NCBI RefSeq assembly: GCF_000787575.1
Contig: NW_012236518.1
Coordinates: 186,001 to 250,000 of the forward strand
Reading direction: 5' to 3'
DNA from: Acytostelium subglobosum LB1
Taxonomy: Eukaryota; Evosea; Eumycetozoa; Acytosteliales; Acytosteliaceae
Length of the DNA: 64,000 nt
The notes beneath the pieces were generated by a model. It ran no database searches and was not told where the DNA came from. It worked only from the letters and a program-made list of their open reading frames with translations. A program made the translations under genes and the position numbers. Shown here piece by piece: positions 43,523 through 63,814 of this stretch (positions are counted from its first letter, which is position 1; every line of letters starts with the position of its first letter).

Positions 43523-45471
43523 ATGCTCAACTCACCAATGTCACACCAACATGTTGTACAAGAGCAACAAGAGCAACAAGAGCAACAGCAACAACAAAAA
43601 TGGGCTGATCCGAATATCGAATCTCAAGTACAAGCAATAGACGACAAAAAGAACCTCACAGACGAACAAAAGTTAATAATCATCAGGACCATCCACCCTG
43701 ACGTTCGTTATATCCCAGACAGACTTTTACCATTGTACGCCGCCAGTTGCCGGCCCGCCACACCCACTCCAACGAGTAAGTACAAACAATAACGGCGCAA
43801 TGTCTTCATCCAATATACTAACATACGCACTCAATCCTAAGCTCCCGGACTACATCAATTGAGCGAAGGAGGCAATCGTAAGTACAAATTAGAGTGGTTT
43901 TCCTTATAACCATACTGACTCTTATCTAGTCAAACTGAAGAGACAAAGCAATGAGGACGATGTTTTTGAGTTACCGTTATCAAGAAAGCATCTGAAGCGA
44001 ATGCATGACGAAAGGCAAACTTTCATTGGGTTTGTGACCTTTAATCAGGATGCCTCCCCCGGGGGAGGCTATCATTTTCTATGTTCTGGATTCAACAACC
44101 TCCAAATCAGCAACCACTAGTGAATCAATTCCTCCACGCTCCCCAACACCTCCCCTGTATGAACCTGACCGGGGGCAGGTACAAAGAAAGAAGGCCACCA
44201 AGGGCGGTGATGCTGACATTGCCGCCCCTTATTTTCTATCATACTCAGCTCGTGCACCCACATCAACAACCGCAACAGCAACAGCAACAACAACAACCAC
44301 AACCACATCCACAAGATGCCATCAAGAAACATTACAAGCATTTGGCTATCGCGTATAAGCATCAAGATATTTCCAAAAAAGTGTTTATGGAGCATCTGAC
44401 CATTATCTTTGGTAACAACGCGGAGAAGTACTTCAATATGATCCACAATGACGAAGATATTCTGAACTCTCCCAGGCCTCCACCAGGATTCACCCAGACC
44501 TTGCTCGAGTCGACTCCCAAGATTCGCGGTCTTGTCGAACAAATTCTTTACCAACAGCAACAACAAAAACAACAACAACAACCACAACCCAAGGGCCAAC
44601 AACAACAACAACAACAACCTAAGAAACTTCAGATGACTCAACATAATGTTGAACAACAACAGCATCATCAGGACCATTATCAAACCGAGGCCTTTCGTTC
44701 ACTAGCTATTCAGAGAAATCGACATCAACAGCAACATACACTCTTGAAATCAATCAAATCTCCGATCACAAACTTCATTTTCAGTAGTGACACCTTTGAT
44801 AGACAATATTTTAAGGACGACCCTAAATGTTGTCATAAATGGTTCAAAGATCTTGCTGATGTCCTGGAGCATTTCCCTCATCAACAGACTGCCCCATCAC
44901 CTGGCTTCTATCACTGTACCATCTCTAAACGACAATTCTCAGATTTGAACACTTGTCAGCATCCCACGCCAAGGACAAATACTATGACAGGGTGCTCACT
45001 CACAAAGATGCTCCCCCAGTGATATTCTTTGGGGCAAGTGCCTTCATCATGCGCCCACCATCATTCCTTTCGGATATAACATGGTACCCAACCCCAAGCA
45101 ACAATCGTACCCTCGAACATATGTCAGATAGGTTACTTATTCAAGACCTCAAACAATTCACAACCTATCTTATTTATCACATTGGATCAATCTATTCAAG
45201 AAATAGCCGAACTACTATTCAGCATCTCTTTGCATTGGTTCCTCCTCAGCACCCACAATTATTGTTTTTCAAACAACACTGCCAACGGATCGATGGTAGT
45301 GTCGTCAATCCTCTTATTTACTTTGAGGATAACACCCTTCACACTTTATCATTCCCAAATCATTTGGTCAACATTGCTATTGCTTGCGACACGATCAAAA
45401 TCTCCGAAGCCTTGTGGGACAAGGTCACAAACAAATCATACAACAAACAGAAGGTAGGTCATCAAAATTGA
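43523..45471 (+). CDS. Unrecognised Gln-rich protein, five exons, one apparent extra base
   Basis: I do not recognise this gene. A consistent model is exons 43523-43775, 43842-43877, 43930-44178, 44249-44915 and 44960-45471. All junctions are GT-AG; the 44-bp last intron is short. Exon 3 is one base too long for an open frame, and the shift coincides with the CCCCCGGGGG run at 44056-44065; without it the protein reads ...QDASPGEAIIFYVLDSTTSK. An alternative is a weak GTTATC-donor intron at 43976-44047. The product (~570 residues) has two Gln-rich blocks and a non-repetitive C-terminus (RVLTHKDAPPVIFFGASAFI, HCQRIDGSVVNPLIYFEDNT). No membrane span or known catalytic motif is visible. Confidence 0.5.
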
Positions 45472-58436: not shown

Positions 58437-61400
58437 ATGAGGCAATCCAAACAAATATTATATTTATTAATTACATTCAGTATACTATTTAATCATTATA
58501 TAGTTGGTAAGTATTAATTATTTAGTCAGATCGTTCAATCCCATAAATTAACATTCATTCCCACACTCAAACACACACAACCTGTGATCAATCAATGAAT
58601 GAAACATGATATGTAGCACATCAAAATGCAGGTAGTTCGATTATAATACCACCGACTGATCAGGCTTCATCGAGTGCACCACCACCCTCAGCATCATCGT
58701 CAGCTCCACCTCCTACGACGACACCGCCATCGACACCTCCACCGACTACTCCTGAGCCGACTACTCCTGAGCCAACTACTCCCGAGCCTACAACTCCTGA
58801 ACCTTCTACACCAGCACCGATTGGATCAAGTTCGGCGCCACCATCGACACCTCCACCATCGACCACTCCACCGTCAACTCCATCACCTCCACCATCGGCC
58901 ACTCCAGCGCCATCATCATCACAAACACTGACACCTCCACCCGAGGCCATTGATCCCAATCAACCACAAAGTTCAAACTCGCCGATCATTTCTGCATCAT
59001 CCCAGCCAGCACCAACTCCATCACCATCTCCATCATCATCAACTCCACCAACAACTGGCACTACAACATCTTCATCACCATCATCATCTTCACCAAGCGG
59101 CAACAGCAACAGCACTGTCCCACCAGGTAATCATACATCATCGAGCAATGATACATCGTCGGCAACACCAACACCATCTAAACAAGCATTGAACACCAAT
59201 GTCATACCAACGACATTCCCAATTGCAACAATCGTCAACACTGTCAAGGGCAATACCTCGACGCCCTACGTCATCAGTCAAATCCAAGACCGTGATGCCG
59301 TCTCCAACTGCAAGGCCAAGACCTACTGCACCCTAACAGGCAATGCCAAGTCCACAACAGCCTTCAATGTATCTAGTAAGTACACATTGATCATTTGAAT
59401 GATCACATGATCATCAGACTCACTCACTCATTCAATCATTAGTGGCAAGCGCCTTTGGAAAGTGTATTGTGATGTTGTCCAACTTGGTTAATAAGGATGG
59501 TACTGTGTCATGTAAGATATCAACATTCAACACTGACACTGGTACAGTATACTTCAAGACCTACAACAAGAACAAGAAGTGTACAACCATCTCCATCGAT
59601 GACAAGTACATCTGGTACACCTATGACAATGTCCTCGACGTCCTCACGCACGATCCAGACTGTGGTAACTGTATGTACTCACTTGGATACACAATCACTC
59701 GATCAATCACTAACCATTTACCCTCCATACTTAGTCGCCACAACTGGAAAGGCCAAGACATTTGTGAGTGATGTGTCACAGGTTATTTCTGATCCACTGG
59801 CTAAGCAAGGACGTTCACTGTATGTTTATCAAAAGACATCACAGGTGTTGACACAGTATGTCTATCCAGATAACTTGAGCGTGCTCAAGAATGTCAGTTG
59901 GGTCAACATTGGAAGTGCCTGTTACATATCACAATTTGGTGTTCCAGATAAAGTGTCCGTAAGCTACCCCGACGGCTTCCGTATCTTCAAGGTGCCCACC
60001 TCTCAAGCCCGTGACTACCTTGTCAAGAACGACGGTGACTCCTTCTGTGGACCATTCGTTCAAAATGGTTTGGATGTTGTATGTATCACTCATTCAATCA
60101 ATCATACAATCGTTCAATCACTAACTCGACTGATCTCGATGATGTAGTACTCATTGCCAAAGGTTGGTGGAAATAGTTTCTTGAAGATTGTGCCTGGATT
60201 GGAGTTCCAAGTTAGTAGACCATGTATAAACTCTACAAATGGACAGATTGTGATCAAGGGAAGTGTTGACCGTTATAACTTCTCATGGGCCGATACCAAC
60301 AACACCAACTCATCAAGATTCAATCTTACCAGTGGTCACTACACCGTCCAGATCACCGCCAAAGAGATTGATATCTCTGACTTCAAGACCTTGGACGTTG
60401 TTCCACCAAATGGTATGTACCTCAAATCAATCAATCAAACATGAAACCATTCCACTCACTCACTCACCTTCAATCAATCATATTAGATCCAACATTTGTG
60501 AACATTCAAAACACATGCCAGGGTAACTCAATGGGTGCACTCAACTTCTCATTGCCAAAGGATCCATCGATCAACTATACTTATGTGATAGCAGATGGGA
60601 ACTTCACGAGGAACTCAACTATTGGGTACTTTGATTTCCTCAAGTCCAAGAACTACACAGTCAAGATCAACACGACCGACGAGTATGGCTTCAAGTGTAC
60701 CTACACCAAGTTTGAGAATGTAGTTGAAGGATGTATGTATCTCCATGATCAATGAATGACACTCAATCAATCAAACTAACATATTTCCAAATAGTGCCAC
60801 ATAAACCACTTTATGAAGCTGATGGTGGAAGCTGTTTCAACAAGTCAGATGGTAGTATCACTATTACCAATTATAATCCGGCAGAGTATACATATCAGTT
60901 GTTACCGCCATCACCCAAAGCAATTGTGAATGGAACATTCATAGACCTTGTTGGATCAAACACTCAGTTCTACACACTGATAGTATCACAGAGTAACCTC
61001 ACTCTCAAATGTCCATCCTACACCAACATCATTGTGCCACAGCCACCCAGTATGTATCCATCCCGTCCATCAATCATTCATATACTAACATAATCAATCA
61101 AACAGAGTTTAGATTCCCCAACTATAATATTACCGCACCACCTTTATGTTATGGATATAACTCATCGATGGAGATTGAGTATATAAAGGGATTGGATTAT
61201 AGGTTGACACATCAGACTGGTATTGTGTACCATGCCTATCTATTGGCAAATGGATACAACCGTTACCGCAATCTACCACCTGGAAACTACTCCTTGGAGT
61301 GTGTAGTGAGCAGCCGTGATGGGGGCGTCTGCAAGAAGGCCACCAAGTACATCTTTATCGACCAGCCATCAATGATCCAGCTCAACACAACATTGGTGAC

Positions 61401-61899
61401 ACCAGAGTGCACAGAGGATGGCAAGGAGGACCAGCTGGTCTACGCACATGGCGGCTCGCCAATCAACGGCACATCGTACCTGTTTGTCGGACAATACGCC
61501 AATGCCACTGGACCCGCACTCAATGTATCGTACTGGATTGATGGCGTCTACTTGATCAACATCACAGATCAATATGGCTGCGTGTCCCAATACAAGAACT
61601 TCACAGTGCAGCGTCCTCCTGGATGTGCGATAGCCACATCGCACCCGACTGGAACTGGCAAGACAGTCAACCCAGACAGCACCAACGAGGGCCAGTTCGG
61701 ATTTGTCACGCCAGCTGATGATGCTGCCATTGGCATCGGTGTGGGACTTGGTATTGGTGTGCCAATGTTTGCCGCGGCCGTTGCCATGGGTGTACTCTGG
61801 TGGCGTGGACGATGGTTGGGCGTCAAGGTACCTGCCACTCCAGCCAACACCATACCGATATACATGGGTGGCAAGATACATAACATAGATAACTTCTAA
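58437..61899 (+). CDS. Mucin-like cell-surface protein with SprB-like repeats
   Basis: Eight exons: 58437-58506, 58617-59375, 59443-59670, 59735-60078, 60148-60412, 60487-60732, 60795-61049 and 61106-61899; 986 residues. Exon 1 is a signal peptide (MRQSKQILYLLITFSILFNH). Residues ~30-210 are a Pro/Ser/Thr stalk with TTPEP repeats, a likely O-glycosylation region. A Cys-containing globular domain follows. Next come about four units of ~85 residues, nearly one per exon, like PCINSTNGQIVIKGSVDRYN FSWAD...SGHYTVQITAKE and SCFNKSDGSITITNYNPAEY TYQL, which resemble SprB/Ig-like beta units. A span (AAIGIGVGLGIGVPMFAAAV) and short tail end the protein, making it type I. Adhesion is the likely role. 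Confidence 0.8.
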
Positions 61900-61935: not shown

Positions 61936-63814
61936 TTATTTCAAATCAAAGAGCAAGGCATATTGGGAGATCTTCTTGACCTGAGCTGTCAATTTGACGG
62001 CTTTGCTCTTTGTAGATGTGAGATAATGTTGTTCCTTGAAGGTATAAAACTGATCAGGGGGAAGAACGAAATATAGTTCCACGTTTGCCACAGTTCCTCC
62101 AAGTTGATCGACAATGCTGGACAGCTCCTTCATCAGAGGTGGATGATCTGGCGAAACTGTTACTTGAAACAACTGATTCGGTTTGATCAAGCTGTCGATG
62201 GCTGGAAAGTTGGAGAAGCTTGGGACAAGATAAACATTGCCAAGAGCTGGTCCAATATCAGAGATAGACTTGATAACCAATGATGATGATGGTTTGGGGA
62301 AGGTAATGGTGTCCATAATGTTGGTCTTGAGAGCTCTTCTTTGGAAAGTCCCTCCATGTTGTTTCAACTTTCGATGCACTGCTGCCTCAAGGAATGATCC
62401 ACCAAGTGGAGAGTGAAGGAACCTCGGCACTGCCAGGTTTGCAATGACTTGTTGCATGTTATTGGCCTCGATCGCTTGAACTGCGACATTGGCAACGTAC
62501 TTGGATGAGAATCGTAACTCCATGGCACCATATTTTGGAATGCCAACGACGTCGATTGGGATGATTTGAATAATCTTGTGGCTGCCTGGTGCTTGTGGGT
62601 CTTCTTCGCCGATACACTTCAAGCAATCGTCAAGGTTAAGTGTAGGAATAACCTGCTCAAGAGAGTGTTGGAAAGCTGGATTATCAGCCTTCTCCAAGAT
62701 GAATCGTGGAATACCTCCCCACTTTGACCAGAGATCGTCGAGGGTTGCCTAAAGAAGATCGATTAGTATGTGCATAAACATAATATCCATTAATATGGGT
62801 AAGTACCTGAGTCACCTGAGGATACAATAGGGGTCTGACATGGTCGACTTCATCCTTCTCCCATGGGGGCATATACATGCGAGCGGTGCGATCGTTCTTG
62901 AGGAATTCCTTATACTGGGTTGGATCGGGTGAAGATACAATGATGGTCTTGGCGGCGACATTGGACTCCTTCTTGCTGTCGACCAAAAAGTATGTAGACT
63001 TCTTGGTCAGGTAGGGGACAACCAGTGCCTTGGGACCGTGCTTGAGAATAGGAGAACCATTCAAATCGTAGCCGTATAGATAGTAGGAATGTTCATCGTT
63101 TGAATGAATGGAGTGGATGACCATTGTTTCCTTCTTCTTTGCGATCTCCGCCATCAGGTAGTAGAGGAAGCATGACTTTCCAATGCCGGGGTTGCCAATC
63201 ACAACGTACGAGCTGTAAAATGGTTGTTGTGGTGGCGCAGAGGCGGAGCTGTGTGTCGCGTTGGTTATGTTTATGCCTTCGTATCGATCAAATTGGGCAA
63301 AGATCAAACTCTTTATTTCCTCATAGCAATCTCTCACATAGAGGGATGATCTCTTGGAAGGATTGCCCAAGAAATGCAGATCACTCGGGAGTGTGAGAAC
63401 CTTTGATTTTGGATCAACAACACACGTCTGGAGTGCAACCCAAAATGACAAGTTCTCAGTCTCTACTGCGGCTGATGATTGGATAGAGTATGAGAATGAA
63501 TGTAAGATCAACAATGAAATGTGTGACTTACATAAATAAGGTCCAGTTTGTCCAGTGAAGTATCCATTTGGAAGAATTGAGTGAGGTCCAGTTGTACCTG
63601 TTTGTCCTATATTGTAAACTTGAGAGGTGTTAATGTTGATGAGGACATTGGCCTGATGTTGTTTGTACTTACGTGCTTGGGGAGGATTGGTTAGTTCATC
63701 GAGAATCTTCTTCTGGGCTTCGTCGAATTGCGTTTGATTTATGAGCTTCTTTTCAAGCAAATCCTTCAAGGTCTGCAAGCGCTTGGTTGGGCTATTGGTT
63801 GGGCTGACTGACAT
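61936..63814 (-). CDS. Crinkler/RHS-type protein: SHOCT-like + P-loop NTPase + nuclease-like C-terminus
   Basis: Four exons: 63814-63673, 63606-63532, 63471-62807 and 62748-61936; 564 residues, frames intact. Residues 10-40 (TKRLQTLKDLLEKKLINQTQ FDEAQKKIL) match the SHOCT pattern. A P-loop, VIGNPGIGKSCFLYYLM, lies at about 163-179, followed by STYFLVDSKK and IIVSSPDP, as in the NTPase domain of Crinkler/RHS proteins. The diagnostic WSKWGGIPRFIL comes next. The C-terminus has LFQVTVSPDHPPLMKELSSI and VELYFVLPPDQFYTF, the end of the restriction-endonuclease-like domain in this family. Known members include oomycete effectors and trypanosome RHS proteins; the role in amoebae is unknown. An upstream ATG at 63859 would add 15 residues. 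It converges on the SprB-like gene at 36 bp. Confidence 0.82.

Follow-up and report, generated by a model that had tools for sequence, protein, structure and literature searches.

Header exons and cores of Crinkler-RHS (CR) type genes in the genome of Acytostelium subglobosum LB1 occur in many combinations, joined at a recurrent phase-1 intron, and header and core are paired no more often than chance. One of these genes lies in the window, the 64,000-nucleotide stretch of DNA analysed here (C42:186001-250000 within the searched genome of 30.73 Mb and 56 contigs; C denotes contigs and L loci), and it shows both kinds of swap, a shared header on another core and a shared core under another header. 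With fair confidence, we read its product as a putative intracellular, NTP-controlled, nuclease-type effector of the CR kind, in which headers and cores would be interchangeable, new pairs would form by recombination at the joint and many copies of the shared backbone would belong to Polinton-like elements.

The CR-type gene of the window

An exact start (63814) and stop (61936) on the minus strand delimit a single spliced gene, which is the interval noted in the preliminary description. Removal of the introns 63531-63472 and 62806-62749, both with clear GT-AG borders, gives an open frame of 586 aa. There is probably a further 5' intron of 54 nt (63672-63619), and the predicted protein then has 568 aa. 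The homologous intron contains in-frame stops at 34 of the 41 joints read; the window copy is one of the seven without a stop and stays open in frame, so that its splicing is inferred from the homologues. Gene models were built from genomic DNA alone. The features are as follows.

63673..63814, minus strand: exon 1, the header exon with the SHOCT-like helix pair; 47 codons plus one base, so phase 1
63701..63781, minus strand: SHOCT-like segment, header residues 12-38 (PF09851, E 0.0089, 16.2 bits, cut-off 27)
63619..63672, minus strand: intron 1 (54 nt), which is the recurrent joint intron in diverged form (pattern match at C42:249646-249672; alignment; 79% identity to the L040 copy)
63532..63618, minus strand: linker exon, rich in Gly and Thr, exceeding in length those of the other aligned joints
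63472..63531, minus strand: intron 2, 60 nt, GT-AG
62807..63471, minus strand: exon 3, RHS-type P-loop NTPase
63173..63196, minus strand: Walker A, GNPGIGKS (mostly invariant columns in alignment A4)
62749..62806, minus strand: intron 3, 58 nt, GT-AG
61936..62748, minus strand: exon 4, WGGIPR segment, C-terminal REase-like domain and stop codon
62704..62718, minus strand: GGIPR motif (alignment)
62152..62205, minus strand: PAIDSLI...LFQVTVS, candidate nuclease motif (alignment; model strands 186-189 and 192-196)
43776..43802 (C42:229776-229802), plus strand: second joint intron in the window, at L054, belonging to a separate gene with a header ORF at about 43523-43774

The core is under purifying selection, with dN/dS of 0.13-0.26. 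Comparison with the C45 paralogue gave 0.20 and 0.16 (221 and 269 codons) and comparison with the C54 paralogue 0.26 and 0.13, with dS near saturation in the latter; for the header, dN/dS against the C33 paralogue was 0.24, over only 43 codons. Together with the exact start and stop and the open spliced frame, selection on the core bears out the description of the gene as intact. A membrane-protein-like frame (recognised by eye) lies tail to tail with the CR gene at window positions 61009-61899 on the plus strand and ends 36 bases from its stop. A scan for sigma-70 promoters returned nothing above chance.

The P-loop (VVIGNPGIGKS), GGIPRFIL and LFQVTVS...H (LFQVTVSPDHP) motifs named in the preliminary description are all present. 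Its assignment of the protein to the Crinkler/RHS type is upheld by the NTPase, which is related to trypanosome RHS: exon 3 matches the NCBIfam RHS model TIGR01631 at E 1.2e-6 (27.1 bits, below the cut-off of 89.75), and the NTPase matches PF07999 at E 0.0012 (18.8 bits, below the cut-off of 25). For the whole protein, Pfam ranks a generic P-loop family first, RNA_helicase, at E 0.00065, just under the cut-off, and the Pfam and PDB results include STAND- and AAA-type matches. A PDB search with the single protein gave weak matches alone (best E 0.12); one of two PDB profile searches gave five matches at E 0.12 or worse and the other none. PADLOC models matched weakly (best E 3.7e-5), the Crinkler N-terminal model was absent from the Pfam matches of the protein at E 1 or less, and an NTPase profile found no confirmed relatives in either viral contigs or prokaryote genomes. 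Exon 4 had no match in NCBIfam. As to the proposed REase-type C-terminus, a structure model of low confidence weakly resembles restriction endonucleases, and restriction-endonuclease-like nucleases rank top with weak Z. In the PAIDSLI...LFQVTVS motif, we take Asp, Gln and Thr to stand at the PD-(D/E)XK positions of Asp, Glu/Gln and Lys.

Further, the header, which begins MSVSPTNSPTKRLQTL, has no signal peptide by eye, and this favours an intracellular role. It had been described as a SHOCT segment. The SHOCT-like character stands, and full membership does not, as its 16.2 bits lie under the Pfam cut-off of 27 bits. PF09851 matched the whole protein only weakly (E 0.43) and the header of the C33 paralogue alone at E 0.0011 (19.0 bits, again under 27), and a PF09851 profile search of the genome found four weak places, the C33 header among them, all under the cut-off. 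The suggestion that SHOCT acts as a tether to a membrane or an oligomer found no support; the part consulted of the paper that defined SHOCT reports that oligomerisation was tested and not seen (PMC3581485).

A recurrent intron joint and the exchange of headers and cores

The junction between header and core is a phase-1 intron whose sequence recurs at at least 46 genomic sites on 25 contigs. Two pattern searches found 36 places each and BLAST found 40 (40 of 49 candidates scored), for a union of 46; reversed-pattern controls of both pattern searches gave none. The genome searches scored the best candidates only, and the site counts are therefore lower bounds. Of these joints, 41 were read (C19, C51:129121, C49, C37 and C53:210723 were left out), and the 3' ends of most cores lie outside the stretch read.

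The length of intron 1 up to an acceptor-like string is 58 nt in 30 of the 41 joints, and its identity to the L040 copy has a median of 95% (range 74-100), against a median of 57% for the 58 nt of coding sequence that precede it. The acceptor was located by string search; two loci lack one, and the value for L071 (26) is an artefact. Because intron 1 contains an in-frame stop at 34 of the 41 loci, splicing is obligatory there. The longest upstream open frame ends in phase 1 in 38 of 41 (the exceptions being L020, L053 and L064), and certain headers are short or decayed, for example those of L042 and L043. Downstream of intron 1, the order at many loci is a small Gly-rich linker exon, an intron 2 that starts GTAAGTA, and the core; L031, L038, L046 and L065 are among those that continue without the linker exon.

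Some joints have unusual surroundings. At L054 the header resembles that of L047, and the longest downstream frame is poly-Q rich with no Pfam match. At L062 a header-type exon and joint (at 1967) stand before a long frame that contains three SdrD_B repeats (E 3.8e-12); a surface-protein gene may have been captured here or have merged with the joint gene. L045 and L072 (C53:1433849-1438460) are joint genes lying tail to tail with the terminal repeat of one of them in between.

The modules on either side of the joint are diverse. When ten headers were scanned singly against Pfam, those of L046 and L060 matched ubiquitin-like families (best E 2.4e-8), that of L058 matched SAM_3 (E 2.6e-8) and that of L061 SAM_2 (E 0.0003); L018 and L041 gave weak SAM matches, two of the ten weak SHOCT matches, L036 one weak LRR cap match and L032 none. 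In a scan of 39 headers, every family matched at most five members. On the core side, a Walker A motif is present in the stretch read at 11 of 41 loci, the instance at L062 being probably due to chance, and the cores include several P-loop families. The core of L066 has a SAP domain and, after it, an FVELK segment (the latter by eye), that of L051 a DUF6826 match below the cut-off followed by a kinase-like HRDIRPSN segment (by eye), and that of L038 a possible peptidase-like segment (by eye).

The window gene illustrates how these modules are combined. A protein search of the genome found its header on a different core at C33 and its core under other headers at C45 and C54. The two headers share 87.5% DNA identity over 120 nt, and no relation between the C33 core and the window core was detected; the window core is 77.8% identical in DNA to the C45 core, whose header differs. 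The SHOCT fusion, which had appeared unusual, is thus accounted for as one of many header-core combinations in the genome. Distant relatives of the core at L022, L023, L024 and L025 have no recognised joint. At L025 the core alignment begins at a Met immediately ahead of the FW segment, which suggests that headerless forms may exist.

Among the 41 joints, related headers stand on unrelated cores and near-identical cores stand under unrelated headers. Header DNA is common to 14 pairs, 13 of them without core DNA similarity, and the core-side stretch shared by L046 and L060 is the terminal repeat. Six core pairs (L047/L052, L039/L057, L043/L055, L059/L061, L048/L059 and L048/L061) are 98.4-100% identical over 307-1372 nt without detected header similarity, with the caveats of a truncated header at L043 and a core read over no more than 439 nt at L048. 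Similarity in each of the six starts 5-8 nt upstream of the intron donor, and several also share the upstream element described below. Conversely, L036/L045, L045/L057, L032/L039 and L048/L049 have similar headers, and their similarity continues across the intron and linker as far as positions +109 to +132 before it is lost; 0% bins in the positional identity profile are partly free-end-gap artefacts and not measured identities. At the protein level, 17 locus pairs have related headers and 54 related cores, and two have both (L046/L060 and L048/L049), compared with 1.13 expected under random pairing (5000 shuffles, P 0.31). For this test the sequences were cut at the shared 3' terminal repeat; the uncut version gave two pairs against 1.15 expected and the same conclusion. 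These swaps probably arise from recombination at the joint.

Transposable elements beside the relatives

L047 has 1.08-1.21 kb of DNA upstream of the header in common with 11 other loci (88-92% identity), most of whose headers are unrelated, and shorter upstream pieces in common with further loci. The shared DNA holds a divergently oriented ORF, which is open over 649 aa at C45. Pieces of this polymerase-type ORF occur within 1.8 kb of 28 of the 46 joints, and in 27 the closest piece is on the opposite strand; at the joint C45:884842 the nearest piece is on the same strand and the main piece is divergent. The DNA_pol_B_2 family PF03175, which we take to be the protein-primed type of family-B DNA polymerase, matches at least nine genomic places, eight of the nine in the divergent ORF family, and the one on C40 adjoins a joint. 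Its cut-off is exceeded at three of the nine, at two of them only together with neighbours in frame. The polymerase-like ORF of L019 was named by none of PHROGs, NCBIfam and Pfam, its motifs being recognised by eye and its relatives marked by PF03175, and a search with the polymerase-like ORF confirmed no relatives among viral contigs. Small C2H2-like zinc-finger frames (by eye) flank the polymerase ORF on both sides (L047:1891-2169, L077 and L078).

A second shared stretch lies downstream of unrelated cores at 19 of the 46 joints, 17 of them with an end pattern 1.5-3.1 kb from the joint. This pattern occurs at at least 24 genomic places, and its reversed control at none. At C28 and C54 the terminal stretch recurs inverted beyond the polymerase ORF, with no difference between the two repeats in the 101-102 nt compared. 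These copies, the two that were read at both ends, are flanked by the 6-bp repeats CTATGT and AGGACA. The inverted repeats and flanking duplications identify them, at about 4.9 and 4.6 kb in length, as elements with terminal inverted repeats (TIRs) and 6-bp target duplications (TSDs). In two other copies the element continues past the polymerase ORF into a small segment that both share, indicating that larger forms exist. The transposon link that had been proposed for Crinkler-type proteins is seen among the relatives, many of which adjoin TIR elements that bear a family-B polymerase gene, two of them lying within such elements.

Element pieces and joints do not always coincide: 26 of 47 element loci adjoin a joint and 21 do not. 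Element loci without a recognised joint include C25, C40:129k, C46:939k, C47, C48:1.12-1.13 Mb, C49:734k, C50, C51:1.18 Mb, C52:1.37 Mb, C53 and C55, and a terminal repeat adjoins those at C46:938k and C51:1177k. They could represent older relatives, or else elements that carry different cargo. Within the 64-kb window the TIR end pattern has no match; a blastn search with the element found nothing at E 0.01 in the window or in the 8 kb around the gene, and tblastn gave one chance-level match (E 0.23). Overall, many of the relatives look like cargo of Polinton-like elements, a likeness that rests on the polymerase, the TIRs and the TSDs. The elements presumably carry the CR gene when they move, and the window copy may itself derive from one.

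Interpretation and relation to known systems

Judged from sequence, the short header, SHOCT-like here, would set the partner, place or regulation of the protein; the RHS-type NTPase would sense or switch, and the REase-like domain would act on nucleic acid. Header exons and cores would be interchangeable on a shared DNA backbone, many copies of which would consist of a TIR, a family-B DNA polymerase gene, a divergent CR gene and a second TIR. Re-pairing would take place by recombination within the conserved joint, made up of the phase-1 intron 1, the small linker exon and the start of intron 2; as the joint is in phase 1 on both sides, a new header-core pair still splices in frame. The window copy would have lost the element, or never had it, with purifying selection keeping the gene in the host genome. 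The nuclease activity of the window protein and its biological target are put forward as conjectures: most likely the protein would act on nucleic acid under NTP control, either against competing elements and viruses or as a trait of a selfish element, and the defence or anti-competitor use suggested earlier is plausible. We also lean, if only slightly, towards a wider reading, in which Polinton-like elements would serve as a combinatorial factory for Crinkler-type effectors. Each element would bear one effector gene with two slots that are shuffled by recombination inside the joint intron. The header slot would take SAM, ubiquitin-like, SHOCT-like and further exons, the core slot NTPase-nuclease, nuclease-kinase-like and further modules, and stranded combinations, such as the window gene, would be kept in the host.

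Could the pattern at the joints have arisen without exchange of modules? An introner, that is, an intron that inserted itself in many genes, would make the header/core pattern incidental. The median intron identity of 95% over 41 loci fits this idea, as does L062, where the joint precedes an SdrD_B-domain protein and not a CR-type core. However, an introner would carry none of what the joints share, namely the phase of the longest upstream frame in 38 of 41, a linker exon common to many joints and, at 28 of 46, upstream pieces of the same polymerase-type element with up to 1.2 kb of shared DNA. We therefore regard an introner as very improbable. Equally improbable are swaps produced by assembly chimeras at repeats. 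Short-read or paired-clone assemblies can misjoin repeats such as this backbone, which extends up to 1.2 kb at about 90% identity, and the compared stretches are 100% identical for the cores of L047/L052 and L043/L055 and for the headers of L048/L049. However, the 46 joints are spread over 25 contigs, and the A. subglobosum assembly, according to the part of its description consulted, was built from Sanger pairs with inserts of about 3 kb and fosmid ends (PMC4334915), compared with a joint of about 130 nt. Several swapped modules differ by 1-8% and are thus not the same reads, and the case of the window gene (87% for the header, 78% for the core) is too diverged.

The window protein could, alternatively, be an ordinary resident STAND/AAA+ signalling NTPase with no role in conflict and a C-terminus that serves as a scaffold. 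Strong purifying selection, the lack of a detected element around the window copy, the STAND- and AAA-type Pfam and PDB matches and the degenerate catalytic motif all agree with this possibility, which we consider unlikely, though less so than the other two. Against it stand the match to the RHS model, the REase-like structures that top the model comparison, and relatives that adjoin mobile elements and have SAP-, nuclease- and kinase-like cores (all but SAP by eye). The reading as a CR-type effector assembled from exchangeable modules is preferred.

How Crinkler-type proteins spread in eukaryotes and gained their N-termini is an open question, and a transposon origin has been proposed from sequence comparison. 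A single genome here offers recent swaps with mapped break points, a frame-keeping joint and a likely carrier with ends and target duplications. Origin, spread and module exchange thereby become directly testable in a free-living amoeba, and the data suggest that headers evolve as interchangeable parts and not together with their cores.

Among known systems, trypanosome RHS proteins (TIGR01631 and PF07999) have an NTPase like that of exon 3, with the curated cut-offs of both models not reached here. In the parts of a review of the CR superfamily that were available (PMC5289972), CR proteins are described as a header, a P-loop NTPase and an REase-like domain, with ubiquitin-like or small helical headers, kinase and other enzyme cores, and free-living hosts. 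The window gene is similar in layout: its P-loop NTPase is assigned to the RHS/Crinkler type by TIGR01631 and PF07999 (both below curated cut-offs) and by the GGIPR segment, a small exchangeable N-terminal header sits on the core, and the C-terminus is a candidate REase-like domain. The mix of headers and cores in this genome likewise resembles the repertoire reviewed there, whereas SHOCT-like and SAM headers, the recurrent phase-1 intron joint and carriage by polymerase-bearing TIR elements were not found in those parts of the review. In Phytophthora sojae, according to the sections consulted of PMC3726527, 32% of CRN genes have similar N-termini on unrelated C-termini and 35% near-identical C-termini under different N-termini, and the same source cites a break point at a fixed motif for P. 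infestans. The border in P. sojae is a coding HVLVVVP motif, and the text consulted is without the words intron and exon (PMC3726527), whereas here the border is an intron and a small linker exon. Oomycete CRN effectors are marked by an LFLAK/DWL header and a signal peptide. In the partly covered open-licence literature, which says nothing of absence from print, we found no Crinkler genes paired with dictyostelid Polintons or with an intron joint.

Polintons have TIRs and 6-bp TSDs, and the elements here share with them and with Polinton-like viruses a family-B polymerase of the PF03175 kind, TIRs and TSDs of 6 bp. Classical Polintons are much longer than the 4.6-4.9 kb, with one CR gene, spanned by the elements here (two copies read at both ends). 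In the part of PMC6431247 consulted, Polintons are defined by PolB together with a DDE integrase. Trees of pDNAP include A. subglobosum according to their figure legends (PMC4642659 and PMC4409740), possibly through the present ORF. In their manner of working, the genes also resemble the bacterial polymorphic toxins (Rhs/CDI). Those combine a constant backbone with an interchangeable terminal module at a fixed joint; the system described here, in contrast, is eukaryotic, has an intron-based joint and offers two variable slots.
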